Shown here: one piece after another, positions 5,394-32,167 of the stretch
Numbering within the stretch: the first letter of the stretch is position 1
Layout: each line of letters opens with the position of its first letter
Origin: Alphaproteobacteria bacterium
Lineage (GTDB): Bacteria; Pseudomonadota; Alphaproteobacteria; Sphingomonadales; Sphingomonadaceae
Direction: 5' to 3'
Assembly: GCA_030431875.1 (NCBI GenBank)
Contig: JAUIIG010000033.1
Span: 1-32,625, forward strand
Length of the DNA: 32,625 bases
The notes under the pieces: generated by a model
The model's input: only the letters and a program-made list of their open reading frames with translations
Databases searched by the model: none
What the model was told of the DNA's origin: nothing
Translations under genes and position numbers: made by a program

Positions 5394-5993
5394 ATGCAAG
5401 TCCGCGCCCCCGCCATCCTCGTTGCCGCCCGCCAGCATGGCGAGACGGCGGTCGTGGCACGCTTCCTGACCGAGGAATACGGACTGGTCGCGGGCTATGT
5501 CGCGGGCGGGCGCGGGCGGAACCTGCGACCGGTGATGATCCCCGGCAACGCGGTGGAGGTGCAGCTGTCGGCCAAGTCCGACAGCCAGCTGCCCTTCGCC
5601 AAGGTGGAACTCACCGAAAGCCGCGGGCCGTGGCTGGCCGAGCCGCTACCTGCCGCCGCCATCGGCTGGCTCACCGCACTCACCGCTGCCGCCTTGCCCG
5701 AACGCGAGCCCTATCCGCCGCTCTACGATGCGCTGGGCGCGGCGCTGTCTGCGATCTGCCATGCGCCATCCGCACGCGGCTGGGCCGGGGCGCTGGTCGG
5801 CTACGAGATTCTGCTGCTACGCGAACTGGGCTATGGCGGCGCGGACCAGCGGCCCGAAGGCGACATGGCGCAGGTGCTGGAGGCGATGGACGCCATCGGC
5901 CCCGCGCTGGACCACTACCTGCTTGCCGACCGCGCCGGAGGCGTTATGGCCGCGCGGCAACGCTTGCGCGAACTGCTTGGACGGATGACCTGA
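5394..5993 (+). CDS. recO: DNA repair protein RecO
   Basis: The product is 199 residues. RecO works with RecR to load RecA on SSB-coated DNA in the RecF pathway. The N-terminal OB-fold is recognisable ([38 protein letters not shown], residues 5-43), followed by the helical C-terminal domain with the [12 protein letters not shown] segment (about 142-153). It is shorter than E. coli RecO (242 residues), and I see no zinc-binding Cys cluster, so the C-terminal region is reduced; this seems a lineage trait, not a truncation, because the leuB start overlaps the recO stop. Start 5394 gives the usual N-terminus. The TGATG overlap couples it to leuB. Confidence 0.88.
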
Positions 5994-7051
5994 TGAAAAT
6001 CGCACTCTTCCCCGGCGACGGGATCGGACCCGAAATCATGGGCGAGGCGCGCCGCGTGCTCGACGCTATCGACCTGCGCGGACTGGTGCTGTTCGAAGGC
6101 GATGTCGGCGGTGCGGCCTATCGCAGGTACGGCCACCCCTTGCCGCCCGAAACGCTGGACATGGCCAAGGCCGCCGATGCCGTGCTGTTCGGTGCCGTGG
6201 GCGATCCCGCCTGCGACAACCTCGAACGCCACTTGCGCCCGGAACAGGCCATCCTCGGCCTGCGCAGCCAGTTGGGCCTGTTCGCCAACCTGCGGCCCGC
6301 CACCATGTTCCCGGGTCTGGAGGACATGTCTGCCCTGCGTCCCGAAGTCGCCAGCCAGATCGACCTGCTGATCGTGCGTGAGCTCAACGGCGACGTATAC
6401 TTCGGCGAAAAGGCCATGCGCGTGCTCGATGACGGGCGGCGGCAGGGCTATGATTTCATGTCCTACGCCGAAGACGAAGTGCGCCGCATCGCCCATGTCG
6501 CCTTCCGCGCGGCGCAGGGCCGAAAGGGCAAGCTGTGCTCGGTCGACAAGGCCAATGTCCTCGAAACCAGCCAGCTGTGGCGCGACGTGGTGATCGAAAC
6601 GCACGCGGAATATCCCGATGTCGAGCTCAGCCACATGTATGTCGACAATGCTGCCATGCAGCTGGTGCGCAATCCCGGCCAGTTCGACGTGGTCGTTACC
6701 GGCAACCTGTTCGGCGACATCCTGTCGGACCAGGCCAGCATGTGTGTCGGCTCCATCGGCCTGCTCGCCAGCGCCGCGCTGGGCGAGCGGCAGACCGATT
6801 TCGGCACTTTCGGCATGTACGAACCGATCCACGGTTCCGCCCCCGACATCGCCGGGCAGGGCAAGGCGAATCCGATGGCCATGATCCTCTCGCTCGCCAT
6901 GCTGCTGCGCCACTCGCTGGGGCTGGAAGCCGAGGCCGCGCGGATCGAAGCCGCTGTCGGCAAGACGCTGGAAGACGGCGTTCTGGGCGCCGACTTGGGC
7001 GGTTCGGCAGGCACCAGCGAAGTGGGCGATGCAGTGCTGGCAAGGCTGTAA
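5993..7051 (+). CDS. leuB: 3-isopropylmalate dehydrogenase
   Basis: The product is 352 residues. LeuB oxidatively decarboxylates (2R,3S)-3-isopropylmalate to 2-oxoisocaproate with NAD+, the third step of leucine synthesis, in the cytoplasm. The sequence shows GDGIGPE (8-14), the RxxLxLxxNLRP region ([14 protein letters not shown], near 94-107), [10 protein letters not shown] near 130, [12 protein letters not shown] near 183, and the [10 protein letters not shown] metal/NAD motif (about 238-247) followed by [14 protein letters not shown]. Length is typical. ATG 5993 overlaps the recO stop in TGATG, so translation is probably coupled. recO-leuB is an unusual functional pairing. No leucine leader peptide or attenuator is visible. 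Confidence 0.95.
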
Positions 7052-25403: not shown

Positions 25404-26237
25404 CTACCTTTCCTCCTCCCCACCCGCGCCATCGCCGCTGGCCTTGACCAGTCCCAGCCGCTCTGCCGCCTCCCGCCGTTCGCGCATCTTGTCGATCTTG
25501 GCGTTGAGGCGGGCGAGCACGTCGCCGCGGTCGGCCTTGCGCTGCGCGGCAGCTTCGGCGAGCACTTCGGCCTTGATGCTCTCGTAGAGCGGGTGGCCGG
25601 GACGCACGTCGGCGCCGTAGCGATTGGCGCGGCGCTGGCGCAGGAAGAACATCACCAGCGCCTCGTTATGCCGCCGCTCGGTGCCCAGCACCTTGCCGGC
25701 AGAGACCACCAGCCGCTCCTCCCCCTCGATGGCGCGGGCGAGGGCGCAGTCCTCCAGCCGGGAGACGCCGCGATCCACCGCCATGTCCCAGGCCGCGCGG
25801 AATTCGTCGGCACCGGGCTTCTGCCGCAACTTGTAGAGCGCCTCCAGGCTCGCCCCGATGTGGAGCGCGGCCTGCTTGACGACGCCGGTGGCGGCGAGAT
25901 GGGCGATGAACTTGCGCTGCCGGTCCGGCGTGATCGAGTTCCTGCGCGGCGCGACATGGGGGACGGGCGCAAAGTCGAGCAGCGGATCGTCCGCATCGAC
26001 CGGCGAGGGCGGGGCGGTGACGTAGCTGGTGGCCCGCGACCGGGCTCGCGTGGCCGGGTCCTCGCTGCGAGACTGGCTGGAGGGGCACGCGGGTTCCGTC
26101 TCGGAGGGACGTTCCTCGGTCGCATCAAGACAAGAAGGCGAGGGCGTGGCGCGTGCTCGGCGGGCAGGGAGATTGTTGGGCATGCTCGGGAGGGGAGCAT
26201 GGGTGTGGGGTTGTAGGGAAGACTTTTCGAGCTTCAT
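25404..26237 (-). CDS. HTH protein of phage terminase small-subunit type
   Basis: The product is up to 277 residues. The conserved core begins near residue 97: RRNSITPDRQRKFIAHLAATG, VVKQAALHIGASLEALYKLRQKPGADEFRAAWDMAVDRG. This is a homeodomain-like HTH as in terminase small subunits, followed by ALARAIEGEERLVV and KVLGTERRHNEALVMFFLRQR. Alphaproteobacteria carry many such chromosomal proteins of unknown role without phage neighbours. The first about 45 residues are low-complexity, and their DNA forms copy A of a 105-bp direct repeat. The start is uncertain: ATG 26237 and 26183 both lack a ribosome-binding site. The C-terminus is a charged coiled-coil-like segment. The G+C content is host-like. 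Confidence 0.65.
   Translation of the reverse strand: MKLEKSSLQPHTHAPLPSMPNNLPARRARATPSPSCLDATEERPSETEPACPSSQSRSEDPATRARSRATSYVTAPPSPVDADDPLLDFAPVPHVAPRRNSITPDRQRKFIAHLAATGVVKQAALHIGASLEALYKLRQKPGADEFRAAWDMAVDRGVSRLEDCALARAIEGEERLVVSAGKVLGTERRHNEALVMFFLRQRRANRYGADVRPGHPLYESIKAEVLAEAAAQRKADRGDVLARLNAKIDKMRERREAAERLGLVKASGDGAGGEEER
26117..26221. repeat. 105-bp direct repeat, copy A
   Basis: The 105 bp match 26994-27098 at about 95 positions without gaps. The repeat contains the hairpin CATGCTC/GAGCATG. It covers the 5' end of the HTH gene. Together the two copies bracket about 770 bp of A+T-richer DNA, which suggests duplication or insertion. Confidence 0.85.
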
Positions 26238-26269
26238 AGGAAGCTCAGGACGGATAATCCTTTAGCCTT

Positions 26270-26908
26270 TCACAAGGTTGGATCTCTTAATATCGGTAGC
26301 AACTCGCGTTCGAGGTTACTGATCGCTTCTTCGATCGAAACGCCTACTGGGTTCCGCTCAGGCTTGCCCATTCCCATGTCCCATATATCTTGTTCAATTC
26401 GCGTACTAAATTCCTGATCTTGACGGTTATCCGTTGCATACATTTCTGCCGACACATTAACCGAAGTTACTTGCTGCCAGAGGGCCTGAAGTTGTGCCTC
26501 AACAATCTCGCCAAAATAGGCACGAGCTTTCGGCATAACATCGAAAATCATATCCCAATCGGAGTCGTACTGTTTCAGGCGAATTCGTGTGGCTTGTCCC
26601 TGTCTAGCTCGCCGCTGCCTTTCTTCAGGCAAGCTTCGATACCATTCCTGCTCTTTCAGGATTTCATCTGCATTTTCGAGTTCATAACCATGGGTCATTG
26701 GGCTGCGAACGGCTGCCATGTTCCGCTTAATTCTGTAGGCTAGAGTCAGGATTTCATCAGCCGTCTCAAGCCGGCGCTCGAGCAGCTTCTCCTTCCGGAA
26801 TCCGTCGATTGTATTTGCTGCCCGGTGTGCTGCGTAAACTACTGCTCCAACGCCCGCCCATGCAGCGAGGCCGCCAATCATCGAACCTGTTGCGCCCCAA
26901 TCAATCAT
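26270..26908 (-). CDS. Single-pass membrane protein of unknown function in the accessory island
   Basis: The product is 212 residues. One N-terminal membrane helix (about 8-28, SMIGGLAAWAGVGAVVYAAH) is followed by a basic, helical cytoplasmic domain (FRKEKLLERRLETADEILTLAYRIKRNMAAVRSPM). This layout of one helix, a coiled coil with R/K-E heptads and an 'IRSPM'-like turn is familiar from unnamed proteins of genomic islands, but I cannot give a family. ATG 26908 overlaps the stop of the 50-residue ORF upstream (TGATG), so translation is probably coupled; an in-frame TTG lies just before. The DNA is A+T-richer than neighbouring genes, with codons such as TTA and ATA. It is divergent from the KAP NTPase gene. 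Confidence 0.65.
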   Translation of the reverse strand: MIDWGATGSMIGGLAAWAGVGAVVYAAHRAANTIDGFRKEKLLERRLETADEILTLAYRIKRNMAAVRSPMTHGYELENADEILKEQEWYRSLPEERQRRARQGQATRIRLKQYDSDWDMIFDVMPKARAYFGEIVEAQLQALWQQVTSVNVSAEMYATDNRQDQEFSTRIEQDIWDMGMGKPERNPVGVSIEEAISNLERELLPILRDPTL

Positions 26909-27060
26909 CAAAATGGGATATCGTCATCGAGATCGTCGTGCGCAAGCTTTTCTCCATCAATTAGAGATGTCTCATCGATCTTCCACCGTCCACCGGTCGC
27001 ATCAAGACAAGAAGGCAAGGGCGTGGTGCGGTCGCGGCGGGCGGGGACACTGTTGGGCAT
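26908..27060 (-). CDS. 50-residue ORF ending in an SSB-like DDDIPF tip
   Basis: From ATG 27060 the frame encodes about 50 residues: a Pro/Arg/Thr-rich start (MPNSVPARRDRTTP) that matches the start of the HTH protein because both lie in the 105-bp repeat, then a unique part (GRWKIDETSLIDGEKLAH) and the end DDLDDDIPF. That last motif is the acidic tip by which SSB recruits its partner proteins (E. coli SSB ends DDDIPF). No OB-fold is present. The stop overlaps the start of the membrane protein gene. It may be a real small protein, a remnant of an ssb-like gene, or an accidental chimera. Confidence 0.45.
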   Translation of the reverse strand: MPNSVPARRDRTTPLPSCLDATGGRWKIDETSLIDGEKLAHDDLDDDIPF

Positions 27061-27098
27061 GCTCGGGAGGGGAGCATGGGGGTGGAGTTGTAGGGAAG
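26994..27098. repeat. 105-bp direct repeat, copy B
   Basis: This is the partner of 26117-26221, with about 10 substitutions and no gaps. Codon phase is conserved, so both copies read MPN(N/S)(L/V)PARR(A/D)R on the minus strand. The 877-bp offset between copies equals the inserted segment plus one repeat. The copy ends 89 bp before the KAP NTPase start. Confidence 0.85.
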
Positions 27099-27187
27099 TG
27101 AGCAATTACACAATTTTCACTTGAGCAGATATTGCCGTTAGTCAAACTTGCGCCTTTGGCCGCGCAGATTGGACTTGGAAATTTGGG

Positions 27188-28591
27188 ATGAAGAATTGGG
27201 ACGAAGACCTATTCGAACGTCGGCAGACCGCACAAAACCTCATCGCTTATTGTGAAAGTGTTTCAAAGGCTGGAGCCTTGCTTGACGAAGAGCGCTCGCT
27301 CGTGATCGCGGTGGACGCTGAATACGGATTAGGAAAAACGTATTTTTTGAAAGGCTTGATGCTCGATGCATGCGAGAAACATCCGGTTGCATATATTGAT
27401 GCTTGGGCAGATGATCTCATCGATGAACCACTGATCGCGTTAGCGGCGGTTCTTAAGACGGCCGTCCGTCCGCTTATCGAAGCTGATCCAAAGCTAAAGT
27501 CCCGCTGGGGTGTCTTTGCCCGTAAGACAGGGAAGGTCTTCTGGCTAGGAAGCAAGGGACTCGCCAAAAGAGGAGCCCAACTGGCGATTACTTCGGGCGC
27601 AGTCGATCAAATTGCTGACGTGCTTGAAATCGATGATGCCGCACTTCGGAAGGAAATCGCGCAAGCAGCTAACGATGCAGTCACTGATACGGTGAAGGAT
27701 GTTGAAGACGAGCTCAAAGCCCTAGAGGAAAACGAAGTTCTTTCGGCTGAAATTGAGCGATTTGAAGCCGGGCGGCAAGCCATAGAAGACATGAAGCGAA
27801 GTCTCAGCGCGCTGGTTTCAGCTATTGAGGCTCAAGGCAAATCGTTGCCTGTGTTTATTATTATCGACGAATTGGATCGTTGCCGGCCGTCATACGCCAT
27901 AAAATTGCTCGAAGAGCTTAAGCACTTATTCTCAGTTCCGGGTGTTGTCTTCGTGTTAGGTGTCAATTCAACGCAATTGTCCCGGGCGATTGCAGGTGTT
28001 TATGGCAGCCAGTTTTCAGGTTCTTCATACCTTGAGCGCTTCATTGACCGGAGCATTTCGCTTCCATTTCCGCCGCTACGCCAGCTGACCGGCAAAATGT
28101 TGGAGAAGATTCCTGGGTTTGCACGCCTCAAATTTCCGAAGGTTACAGCCGCTGATTCAAGGAACGAGATACCTCCGATAGAAGTAGTCACCTGGATTCT
28201 AGAGTTTTACAAGATTTCCCCACGAAACATCTTCAAGTTTTTTGATCGGCTGCAAACTTGTCTTGCAATTAGTAAAGAAGGCGATGTGGATGGAATTTAC
28301 TTGCTAGAGTTGATTGCGAGAAGCTTCGCTACGAATGAGATTGAGAATGGGCGGCCCTGGCAGGTCGGTGTGGGAGGAGGATTCAACAATTGGCAGTGGC
28401 TCGATGGTGATCTATTTTTTGCCGAGTTGCATGGGGTCTATTCCCTCACACAACGAGAGGCACGTAAGGTCGCGCAGGATGATAGTCCCATATCTGAACA
28501 TCAAGCGTGGTTTCTTGACCAGTCCGGATCGTATGGATCACCCGTCACATATAGAGCCTTGCTCAATGCCGTGGGTGCAATCGGAGGCTAA
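27188..28591 (+). CDS. KAP-family P-loop NTPase
   Basis: The product is 467 residues. Walker A is AEYGLGKT (44-51, Lys50) and Walker B is VFIIIDELDRCRP (222-234, Asp227), the D-E-L-D-R-C-R-P form diagnostic of KAP NTPases (Kidins220/ARMS and the F-plasmid phage-exclusion protein PifA). Between them lies a long insert, partly helical (about 145-210), typical of the family, but with no convincing membrane helix. A C-terminal domain of about 180 residues follows. The gene is clearly A+T-richer than its surroundings and uses codons rare nearby (TTA, AGA, ATA), a sign of transfer. The ribosome-binding site is weak. A terminator follows at 28709. An anti-phage role is an inference. Confidence 0.85.
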   Translation: MKNWDEDLFERRQTAQNLIAYCESVSKAGALLDEERSLVIAVDAEYGLGKTYFLKGLMLDACEKHPVAYIDAWADDLIDEPLIALAAVLKTAVRPLIEADPKLKSRWGVFARKTGKVFWLGSKGLAKRGAQLAITSGAVDQIADVLEIDDAALRKEIAQAANDAVTDTVKDVEDELKALEENEVLSAEIERFEAGRQAIEDMKRSLSALVSAIEAQGKSLPVFIIIDELDRCRPSYAIKLLEELKHLFSVPGVVFVLGVNSTQLSRAIAGVYGSQFSGSSYLERFIDRSISLPFPPLRQLTGKMLEKIPGFARLKFPKVTAADSRNEIPPIEVVTWILEFYKISPRNIFKFFDRLQTCLAISKEGDVDGIYLLELIARSFATNEIENGRPWQVGVGGGFNNWQWLDGDLFFAELHGVYSLTQREARKVAQDDSPISEHQAWFLDQSGSYGSPVTYRALLNAVGAIGG

Positions 28592-28605
28592 ACGCAGCGA
28601 GGTCT

Positions 28606-28733
28606 TGACCCCTGTAGGAAACCCACCTAAAGGCGCGCGCATCCGAGGCTCGCTCCTGTAGCGCCAGCCTTGGCCAGATAGAGCTGAACATTGCCGGTTA
28701 TGTCCCGGGGCTCCGCACAAGGGAGCCTTTTTC
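28606..28733 (+). ncRNA. Possible small transcript after the KAP gene
   Basis: TTGACC, 17 nt, TAAAGG starting near 28607 resembles a housekeeping promoter, and a good terminator ends at about 28732, leaving a stretch of about 95 nt without a reading frame. It may equally be the 3' end of the KAP transcript. I found no match to SRP RNA, 6S RNA, tmRNA or tRNA. Confidence 0.2.
28709..28732 (+). terminator. Intrinsic terminator before the str operon
   Basis: GGCTCC (28709-28714), loop GCACAAG, GGAGCC (28722-28727), then five T. It ends the transcript that includes the KAP gene and insulates rpsL. Confidence 0.75.
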
Positions 28734-28760
28734 TATTGGGGTAGATCGTGAGGCAGGCGG

Positions 28761-28970: not shown

Positions 28971-29342
28971 ATGCCGACTATTAACCAGCTGGTCCGCAAG
29001 CCGCGCCAGCCCATCGTCAAGAAGAGCAAGTCTGCGGCGATGGAATCCGCCCCGCAGAAGCGCGGCGTTTGCACCCGCGTCTACACGACGACCCCGAAGA
29101 AGCCGAACTCGGCCCTGCGCAAGGTGGCCAAGATCCGTCTGACCAACCAGCGCGAAGTCATCGCCTATATCCCGGGCGAAGGCCACAACCTGCAGGAACA
29201 CTCCGTGGTGCTGATCCGCGGCGGCCGTGTGCGCGACCTTCCCGGTGTGCGTTACCACGTGCTCCGCGGCGTGCTCGACACGCAGGGTGTGAAGGACCGC
29301 AAGCAGAGCCGTTCGAAGTACGGCGCCAAGCGTCCGAAGTGA
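28971..29342 (+). CDS. rpsL: 30S ribosomal protein S12
   Basis: The product is 123 residues, part of the decoding centre. The sequence is near-universal: [32 protein letters not shown] (31-51), [12 protein letters not shown] (67-78) and SKYGAKRPK at the end. Lys43, the classical streptomycin-resistance position, is wild type. The other classical position, 88, is Arg here ([12 protein letters not shown]) where E. coli and Mycobacterium tuberculosis have Lys. It is the first gene of the str operon. The stop codon is part of a 10-bp hairpin (29340-29362) that also lies in the rpsL-rpsG gap. Confidence 0.98.
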
Positions 29343-29501: not shown

Positions 29502-29972
29502 ATGTCACGTCGTCGTCGTCCCGAGAAGCGGGAAATCCTGCCTGATCCGAAGTTCGGTGATCAGGTGCTGTCGAAGTTCATGAACAACCTGATGCTGGAC
29601 GGCAAGAAGGCCGTTGCTGAAGGTATCGTCTACTCGGCTCTCGACACTGTCGAAGCCAAGGCGAAGAGCGATCCGGTCGCCCTGTTCCATGACGCGCTGA
29701 ACAATGTGAAGCCGCAGGTCGAAGTGCGCAGCCGCCGTGTCGGTGGTGCCACCTACCAGGTGCCGGTCGAGGTTCGCCCCGAGCGTGCCCAGGCGCTGGC
29801 CATCCGCTGGCTGATCTCCGCTGCTCGCGGTCGTGCGGAAACCACCATGAGCGCCCGTCTCTCGGGTGAGCTGATGGATGCCGCCAACAACCGTGGCAAT
29901 GCCGTCAAGAAGCGCGAAGACACGCACCGCATGGCGGACGCCAACCGCGCCTTCTCGCATTACCGCTGGTAA
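29502..29972 (+). CDS. rpsG: 30S ribosomal protein S7
   Basis: The product is 156 residues, which binds 16S rRNA near the E site and nucleates assembly of the small-subunit head. It shows [40 protein letters not shown]-like residues (76-95), [13 protein letters not shown] and the C-terminal AFSHYRW. Length is standard. AAGGAAATCGTGCA precedes the ATG. The 159-bp gap to rpsL is unusually long for this pair and is filled by hairpins. In E. coli S7 represses its own operon by binding the rpsL-rpsG gap; whether that control survives here is open. Confidence 0.98.
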
Positions 29973-30034: not shown

Positions 30035-32167
30035 ATGGCCCGCGAATATCCGCTGGAGCGCTATCGCAATATCGGCATCATGGCCCACATCGATGCCGGC
30101 AAGACCACCACGACCGAGCGTATTCTCTACTACACCGGCAAGTCCTACAAGATCGGCGAAGTCCACGACGGCGCCGCCACCATGGACTGGATGGAGCAGG
30201 AGCAGGAACGCGGTATCACCATTACCTCGGCTGCGACGACCACCTTCTGGACCCCCGAAGATCCCGCCATGGATCCGCGTTCGGCTCCCGAAGACCTGCG
30301 CGCTGCCATGCCGAAGTACCGCATCAACATCATCGACACCCCCGGCCACGTCGACTTCACCATTGAAGTCGAACGCTCGCTGCGCGTGCTCGACGGCGCG
30401 GTTGCCGTCTTCGACGGCGTTGCCGGCGTTGAACCGCAGTCCGAAACCGTGTGGCGCCAGGCCGACAAGTACGGCGTTCCGCGCATGTGCTTTATCAACA
30501 AGCTCGACCGTACCGGTGCCGACTTCTACTACTGCGTCCAGTCGATCATCGATCGCCTCGGCGCGACGCCGCTGGTGCTTTACCTGCCGATCGGTGCGGA
30601 AAGCGACCTCCAGGGCGTTGTCGACCTGGTCAACAACCGCGGCATCGTATGGCAGGCCGAAGACCTCGGCGCGAAGTACGAGTTTGTCGATATCCCGGCC
30701 GACCTTGCCGACAAGGCTGCCGAATACCGCGAGAAGCTGATCGAGACCGTCGTCGAACAGGACGACGATGTCATGGAAGCATATCTGGAGGGTGAAGAGC
30801 CCGACGTTGCAACCATCAAGCGTCTCATCCGCAAGGGCACCATGTCGCGCGACTTCGTGCCGGTAACCTGTGGTTCGGCCTTCAAGAACAAGGGCGTCCA
30901 GCCCCTGCTCGACGCCGTGGTCGACTACATGCCTTCGCCGCTCGACGTTCCCGCGATCAAGGGCGTCAAGCCCGACAGCGACGAGGAAGAAACCCGTCCG
31001 TCGTCGGACGATGCTCCGTTCTCTGCGCTGGCGTTCAAGATCATGAACGACCCGTTCGTCGGCTCGCTCACCTTCACCCGCATCTATTCGGGCAAGCTGT
31101 CGAAGGGCAGCTACCTGAACTCGGTCAAGGACAAGCGCGAGAAGATCGGCCGCATGCTGCTGATGCACTCGAACAACCGTGAAGACATCGATGAGGCCTT
31201 CGCTGGCGATATCGTCGCCATCGCCGGCCTCAAGGAAACCACCACGGGTGACACGCTGTGCGATCCGGCCAAGCCGATCATCCTCGAGCGGATGGAATTC
31301 CCCGAGCCCGTGATCGAGCTGTCGGTGGAACCGAAGACCAAGGCCGACCAGGAAAAGATGGGCATCGCCCTCAACCGCCTGGCCGCCGAGGATCCGAGCT
31401 TCCGCGTGTCGACTGACCACGAAAGTGGCCAGACGATCATCAAGGGCATGGGCGAACTGCACCTCGACATCCTGGTCGATCGCATGAAGCGCGAGTTCAA
31501 GGTGGAAGCCAACGTCGGTGCACCGCAGGTGGCCTACCGTGAATCGCTCGGCCGCAAGGTCGATGTCGATTACACCCACAAGAAGCAGTCCGGTGGTTCG
31601 GGCCAATTCGGCCGTGCCAAGGTGACCGTGGAGCCGGGTGAACGCGGCCAGGGCATCGTCTTCACCGACGAAGTCAAGGGCGGTAACATTCCGAAGGAAT
31701 ATATCCCCGCGATCGAGAAGGGCATGCGCGAGCAGGCCGAAAGCGGCCACCTGGTCGGCTTCCCGATCATCGACTTCACGATCACGCTGACCGACGGCGC
31801 CTACCACGACGTCGACTCGAGCGCGATCGCCTTCGAAATCTGTGGTCGTGGCGCCATGCGCGAAGTGGCCGAGAAGGCCGGCATCAAGCTGCTTGAGCCG
31901 GTGATGAAGGTCGAAGTTGTGACGCCGGAAGAGTTCATGGGCGACGTTATCGGCGACTTGAACTCCCGTCGTGGCCAGATCCAGGGCACTGACAGCCGCG
32001 GCAACGCACAGGTTGTCGAGGCCCACGTGCCGCTGGCCAACATGTTCGGCTACGTTAACGAACTGCGTTCGTTCACCCAGGGCCGCGCCCAGTACACGAT
32101 GCAGTTCAGCCACTATGACGAAGTTCCGTCGAATGTGGCGCAGGAGATCAAGGAGAAGCTTGCGTAA
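30035..32167 (+). CDS. fusA: Elongation factor G
   Basis: The product is 710 residues, the GTPase that drives translocation and, with RRF, ribosome recycling. The G domain has [12 protein letters not shown] (17-28), DTPGHVDFT near 103 and NKLDRTGAD near 157. Domains II-V follow in normal order, including [13 protein letters not shown] in domain IV and EIKEKLA at the C-terminus. About ten residues longer than many EF-G proteins because of an insert after the first switch region ([16 protein letters not shown], about 71-86), which is common in sphingomonads. Third gene of the str operon, 92 bp before tuf. Confidence 0.98.

Follow-up and report, generated by a model that had tools for sequence, protein, structure and literature searches.

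Do three neighbouring open reading frames (ORFs) of low guanine-plus-cytosine (GC) content, lodged beside rpsL in an alphaproteobacterium of the family Sphingomonadaceae, form one defence system, or do they share nothing but a site? The question concerns a window of 32,625 nucleotides, the whole of contig JAUIIG010000033.1 (C86 of assembly GCA_030431875.1, which comprises 2.96 Mb in 91 contigs), for which an undescribed three-gene defence module had been proposed, made up of an SSB-tip peptide, a single-pass membrane protein serving as effector and a KAP NTPase (hereafter the original prediction). We conclude, with a probability that we put at roughly 0.78, that the slot between the gene of a protein called here HTH277 and rpsL is a compact defence hotspot, and that in the window it holds an intact KAP gene of PADLOC family PDC-S20 together with the relic of a two-gene unit, in which a TIR gene stood directly before the gene of the membrane protein TM212. 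The features concerned are the following.

27188..28591, plus strand: KAP-family P-loop NTPase, 467 residues, PADLOC PDC-S20, intact
26270..26908, minus strand: TM212, 212 residues, a probable N-terminal membrane anchor and a helical bundle
26908..27105, minus strand: chimeric 65-codon ORF, the SSB-tip peptide of the original prediction
26908..26999, minus strand: relic of the 3' end of a TIR gene, about 28–30 codons, ending DDLDDDIPF, its stop overlapping the TM212 start
26987..27098, minus strand: repeat copy 2, a truncated leader and 5' end of HTH277, joined to the TIR relic
26110..26221, minus strand: repeat copy 1, the HTH277 leader and 5' coding end
25404..26237, minus strand: HTH277, 277 residues, conserved left flank of the slot (the helix–turn–helix, or HTH, label was given by eye)
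28971..29342, plus strand: rpsL, right flank (named by eye from its translation)
29502–29972, 3' of rpsL: rpsG (named by eye from its translation)
30035–32167, 3' of rpsG: fusA (named by eye from its translation)

All three ORFs are present, and two of the reasons for singling them out hold: the six 500-base segments spanning 26.0–29.0 kb have 48–59% GC against 57–71% in the other segments, a base composition different from that of the host, and the direct repeats beside the genes (112 nucleotides, 88% identical, BLAST expect value (E) 8e-36), which flank the left unit, lie far above chance. The KAP gene is divergent from the 65-codon ORF and TM212, with a repeat copy between them.

Evidence that the slot is a hotspot comes from related genomes, in which its flanking genes are conserved and its cargo is variable. 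An HTH277 homologue, itself belonging to a protein type for which no Pfam match was found in the window copy, lies upstream of rpsL in 28 of 34 loci of the genus (an rpsL match was present in 37 other genomes of the genus, of which G100, G306 and G320 were left out). With L102 omitted for its two HTH277 matches, 27 genus gaps were analysed, and they measure 1.6–3.4 kb; outside the genus a divergent HTH277–rpsL pair within 4 kb, matched by hand, occurs in 12 of 57 genomes with a gap of 1.4–3.7 kb (G059, where both genes run in the same direction, was not counted), so that all 39 gaps fall between 1.4 and 3.7 kb. Cargo ORFs were chosen mechanically (at least 150 residues, GC at most 57%), and some may be no genes; such ORFs are found in 26 of the 27 genus gaps, 44 in all, and in 9 of the 12 gaps of other genera. 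Together with the two proteins of the window, the genus cargo amounts to 46 proteins, which fall into 39 families (a count confined to the genus), and 18 of the 27 genomes carry private cargo only.

The cargo is, moreover, enriched in defence genes. When the largest cargo ORF of each genome was compared with PADLOC at E<=1e-7, 10 of 26 in the genus and 6 of 9 in other genera matched (16/35), as against none of 10 flank ORFs upstream of the slot. These control ORFs, the leading 10 in a random sample of 20 out of 172, gave one weak CARF/HTH-type match (5e-6); the difference is significant (Fisher p 0.006), with a small control. The genus matches are to PDC-M38A, ThsB (with a second ThsB), PDC-M36A (weak, 7e-10), AbiU, DRT6, PDC-M66B (weak, 7e-14), PDC-S50 (weak, 2e-8), AriA (with AriB), DRT8 and a type II methyltransferase (with a restriction endonuclease), and those of other genera to MTase_II twice, a CBASS cyclase (5e-136), a helicase, an AriAB-like ATPase (9e-16) and DRT6. 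Among the remaining cargo are PRTase-CE, HATPase and DUF6119 proteins, and a 5'-nucleotidase beside a P63C protein. The gaps of L091, L092, L094, L107, L115 and L258 hold parts of a recurring cassette of a LuxR-type gene (by eye) and small proteins; this cassette may be native slot content, and its weak PADLOC matches to a CARF model are probably to the HTH part. In another genus, the same slot (L262:1473–3257) has the CBASS-type cyclase with a 225-residue ORF upstream of it that appears by eye to be membrane-bound, and the two are possibly a compact two-gene CBASS.

Two points tell against so immune a reading of the slot: 19 of the 35 main cargo ORFs have no PADLOC match at 1e-7, and this cut-off was chosen once weak matches to the HTH part of the CARF model, at about 1e-6, had already appeared (similar weak CARF/HTH-type cargo matches in L092, L094 and L258 were not counted; the PADLOC match of L103, with E 2.2e-8, falls within the cut-off). 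The first of these points would suit an alternative in which the KAP gene and the slot are not immune at all, the cargo being selfish or neutral genes caught by PADLOC models of broad families, and it could be added in its favour that some of the cargo consists, by eye, of LuxR-type or DUF cassettes, that one gap has the 5'-nucleotidase, that the name PDC-S20 was not found in the open-access literature (searched here and below by titles and abstract openings), and that the control comprises 10 ORFs only. We nevertheless regard this alternative as rather unlikely, given the strong matches to a ThsB pair, AriA with AriB, AbiU, DRT6 twice, DRT8, the CBASS cyclase and type II methyltransferases, and their absence from the flank controls. 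Among described systems, the rpsL slot resembles cDHS1 and cDHS2 of Pseudomonas aeruginosa, which have fixed core-gene flanks and variable, defence-rich cargo (PMC10250203) and show no tie to one mobile element. The median length of cDHS1 is 26 kb, and tRNA or tmRNA genes border the cDHS, whereas the slot described here spans 1.4–3.7 kb, holds few genes and has a protein-coding flank. No description of a defence hotspot at rpsL was found in the open-access literature.

What, then, does the intact gene of the slot encode? That a KAP NTPase is present, as had been predicted, is confirmed by a Pfam KAP_NTPase match to the 467-residue ORF (E 5e-28), a Walker A motif GLGKT with Lys50 and a Walker-B-like IIIDELD from residue 224. 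It is not an undescribed protein, in that residues 3–365 of 467 match PADLOC PDC-S20 (E 9.2e-66), with which it has the KAP P-loop domain in common, its C-terminal ~100 residues falling outside the match. The protein also matches PifA (1e-11) and QatA (4e-12) more weakly; the KAP domain is common to them, yet similarity is confined to the P-loop half (residues 25–307 match only 28–268 of the 720 positions of PifA), and at 467 residues the window protein compares with profiles of 720 and 646 positions. Transmembrane segments are frequent among KAP proteins; here the best 19-residue hydropathy mean, 1.46, lies inside the NTPase core. Of 295 other genomes of the order, 26 have a homologue, as do 42 plasmid records and five phage-collection records. 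The two closest homologues (49–51%) precede rpsL in G228 and rpsG in G077, and in G277 a 33% homologue is flanked by rpsG on one side and, by eye, an HTH277-like gene on the other. Nine KAP neighbourhoods inspected by eye gave no fixed partner gene, and the open-access literature gave no description of PDC-S20 and, in a search on KAP and PifA, nothing describing such a KAP case. We regard the protein, from its sequence, as a single-gene candidate defence NTPase of a family already in PADLOC; it would work alone as an NTP-driven exclusion protein, like PifA.

Because the same interval holds known defence genes in relatives (ThsB, AriA/AriB, DRT, AbiU, a CBASS cyclase, restriction–modification), and since other genera carry close KAP homologues at this str-operon site, the guess that this locus serves defence gains independent support from its location. 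Among the three ORFs of the window that were scanned with PADLOC, no match to ThsA or ThsB was found.

The support from location does not extend to a system of three genes. According to that proposal, the SSB-tip peptide, the membrane protein as effector and KAP would act together, and in its favour the genes are adjacent, share a low GC content, occupy one slot and include a defence candidate in KAP. Against it stand the divergent orientation of KAP with a repeat between, the chimeric nature of the tip ORF (see below) and the separate distributions of KAP (26/295 genomes of the order) and TM212 (6/295), which do not overlap, though with about 0.5 shared genomes expected by chance this is weak on its own. 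Moreover, in the stretches examined, no KAP was present in 24 TM212 loci plus six from the order, nor TM212 in 10 KAP loci. Since so little overlap was to be expected in so few genomes, these counts show an absence of linkage and are not evidence of avoidance. We found no support for TM212 as an effector of KAP, and altogether consider a three-gene module or operon very improbable.

We turn to the left unit, whose 65-codon ORF ends in ...HDDLDDDIPF and overlaps TM212 by one base, the A common to its stop codon TGA and the TM212 start codon ATG (TGATG). The bacterial SSB tip (DDDIPF) has the same acidic run and the same IPF at the very C-terminus; indeed, the SSB of the host itself, encoded elsewhere in the genome (contig C70 of G000), ends in DDLDDDIPF, identical to the last nine residues of the ORF. 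The ORF is a tip without an OB fold, and with no Pfam match it has no SSB domain and no TIR domain that could be found. The tip noted in the original prediction and the stop–start overlap are real; the independent small gene is not. The N-terminal part belongs to repeat copy 2, which is read in the HTH277 frame and encodes a fragment of HTH277 (70% identical over residues 6–45). Both copies lie on the minus strand, each at the 5' end of an ORF, and a third, diverged copy (77%, L003) lies elsewhere in the same genome, just upstream of an ORF (by eye). Because all copies sit at or upstream of the 5' ends of ORFs, we infer that the repeat is the 5' end of a gene and not an insertion-site duplication.

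The C-terminal part finds its counterpart in L120, from an uncultured Erythrobacter metagenome-assembled genome, where an intact 364-residue protein (TIR364) with a TIR_2 domain (9.7e-15) and the C-terminus DDLDDDVPF directly precedes the closest relative of TM212 (75% identical); there the TM212 start overlaps the TIR stop as TAATG, the counterpart of TGATG in the window. The C-terminus of the L120 TIR protein reads ATDGSWVIKDRKLVDQNTKGGYDDLDDDVPF as against ATGGRWKIDETSLIDGEKLAHDDLDDDIPF in the window. A tblastn search with the relic against L120 gave E 1.1e-5 (among 24 TM212 loci), and the similarity score between relic and TIR364 was reached by none of 2000 shuffles. Compared codon by codon, the nine-residue tips of relic and TIR364 show five synonymous changes and a single I/V change. 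The 54% TIR relative in L144 has the preceding AT...WKI in common. On this comparison, the 65-codon ORF is a chimera in which a duplicated HTH277 5' end is joined to what remains of a lost TIR gene, its last ~30 codons, and the TIR–TM212 module is to be read as dead in the window, its TIR domain gone and its tail left. In the simplest history, a deletion would have joined the second HTH277 5' end to the TIR tail. A search of the window's own genome with the L120 TIR protein detected no TIR364 homologue at E<=1e-3; the genome (G000) has seven TIR_2 matches in its 2.96 Mb (contigs C89, C24, C10, C59 and C27 among others).

Could the chimera have become functional, as a free peptide that rivals SSB for its partners by means of the tip and is translationally coupled to TM212? 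Its frame is open, its nine-residue tip is identical to that of the host SSB, the stop–start overlap with TM212 is kept, and the repeat supplies the upstream region of another gene. Such a function appears improbable, however, for an ORF that occurs as a chimera in this genome only, whose N-terminal half is an HTH277 fragment in the HTH277 frame and whose listed start is TTG. We therefore retain the relic of a TIR gene as our reading of the ORF.

If the tail is a relic, what did the intact protein carry at its end? Searching by profile and by similarity, we obtained 37 distinct TIR-core matches, with 31 different cores at E<=1e-30. Under a strict rule (a hydrophobic residue or P, then P and F at the end, with at least two acidic residues in the preceding six), a tip is present in 16 of the 31 core TIR proteins, compared with 1 of ~5,290 other ORFs from the same loci, read from stop to stop with a minimum of 100 codons, non-coding frames included. 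The tip-bearing proteins come from at least two classes of Pseudomonadota. Near misses are L156 (SEPPF, Paenarthrobacter) and L174 (SEAIPF); in L154 and L159 the tip is cut off by an in-frame stop or lies in a different frame, and L145, L150, L160, L164–L166, L169, L182, L183, L186 and L187 are without one. By comparison, 14 of 19 SSB-family rows show the tip (of the others, L200 was read in the wrong frame, L201 ends at the contig end, and L205–L207 have none). Host SSB and TIR tips may agree closely, as in G919 (SSB EEFDDDIPF, TIR EEEFDDDIPF) and G191 (SSB YDDLDDDIPF, TIR YDDLDDIPF), or may not, as in G120 (SSB DLDDDVPF vs TIR DEDLPF) and G239, whose SSB has a tip and whose TIR protein (L145) has none. 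The general TIR_2 family was rejected as carrier of the tip, which occurred in none of 13 readable C-termini (30 loci, 17 of them cut before the stop).

The TIR gene has a lower GC content than its surroundings in all nine neighbourhoods examined, most copies standing alone between ordinary genes (by eye). At L241:5158–8926, a tip-bearing TIR gene adjoins that of a 973-residue protein which by eye resembles a DNA methyltransferase or restriction–modification subunit. Thoeris ThsB, SpbK and TIR-SAVED have the TIR_2 domain in common with the L120 protein, which differs from these defence proteins by an additional C-terminal region and the SSB-like tip; its PADLOC matches to SAVED-TIR (9e-6), SpbK (3e-4) and ThsB (9e-4) are weak and none is full-length. 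Residues 259–336 of this TIR protein (L120:4907–5998) match PD-T7-3 (2.7e-6) near the C-terminus of the latter, hinting at a module common to two defence proteins. Further viral scans added no new member of the TIR subfamily, the Klebsiella-plasmid TIR protein had no match in E. coli genomes (DNA similarity) or in phages (tblastn), and no description of a TIR protein with an SSB tip was found in the open-access literature.

TM212, the other half of the putative unit, has one N-terminal hydrophobic stretch (best 19-residue Kyte–Doolittle mean 1.53), so that the single-pass membrane protein of the original prediction is probable, without being certain, and its predicted structure is all-helical, with structural matches to generic bundles. 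Besides the relative in L120, named relatives come from alphaproteobacteria, e.g. Sphingobium, Sphingomonas, Caulobacter and Qipengyuania. TM212 as the fixed partner of one effector was rejected as a rule: in seven loci (L130, L132–L137) it stands behind a common 362-residue protein instead, and L010 represents the same place as L132. These pairs are very similar by eye across several genera, with TM212 mostly at about 5968–6636. The L010 copy of the 362-residue protein has no Pfam match, and a kinship with the 424-residue neighbour in L142, suggested by eye, was dismissed when BLASTP showed no similarity. Because a TraI-like helicase adjoins the pair in L130, its position suggests a conjugative element, and TM212 may travel on a mobile element.

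Several findings weigh against a TIR–TM212 unit and against a meaningful tip. Intact TIR lies beside TM212 in one genome only; no TIR364 homologue was found in the stretches examined of 23 other TM212 loci and six loci of the order, and the second closest TIR gene (L144) has no TM212 behind it. Deprived of its last nine residues, the relic has a score reached by 15 of 2000 shuffles, and its similarity to TIR outside the tip is short (about 12 residues). The tip is patchy, with 15 of 31 rows failing the strict rule, and the rows are not independent: when they are clustered at 90% identity, 12 of 24 clusters have the tip, and at 70% it is present in 6 of 16 (five of them wholly). The TIR-core tree needs five tip changes, of which at least three are forced, and one of nine chromosomal TIR neighbourhoods is defence-like by eye (L241). 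Because of these five changes, and the occurrence of the tip in three separate parts of the tree, the sequences are best read as showing a tip that is either old and then lost or gained more than once.

SSB-tip pockets exist on RecO, PriA, Exo I and other proteins, and TIR domains act as NADases. From the gene identities, the relic, the hotspot and the tip that is conserved in part of the subfamily, we infer a functional sequence in which the SSB tip of an intact TIR protein would occupy the SSB-tip pockets of host or phage proteins that act in replication or repair; infection by a phage would alter such complexes, releasing or clustering the TIR domain; NAD+ would then be consumed and the infected cell would stop. 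TM212 would anchor or restrain its TIR partner at the membrane. We suggest tentatively, at somewhat less than even odds, that in a TIR subfamily which spans at least two pseudomonadotan classes and may extend, with a degenerate tip, to an actinobacterium, the tip is a true mimic of the host SSB tip and serves as the sensing end, that phage takeover of SSB hubs is read out as NAD+ loss, and that the window keeps a fossil of such a tail in a family-wide slot beside rpsL.

Finally, the locus is a real defence locus that had been picked out for a partly wrong reason, the window holding a known candidate and a relic. The slot adjacent to rpsL is common to many genomes of the family, and its unmatched cargo (19 of 35 main ORFs) could be screened for new defence systems; if the tip hypothesis is right, one group of TIR proteins would sense infection through a mimic of the SSB tip.

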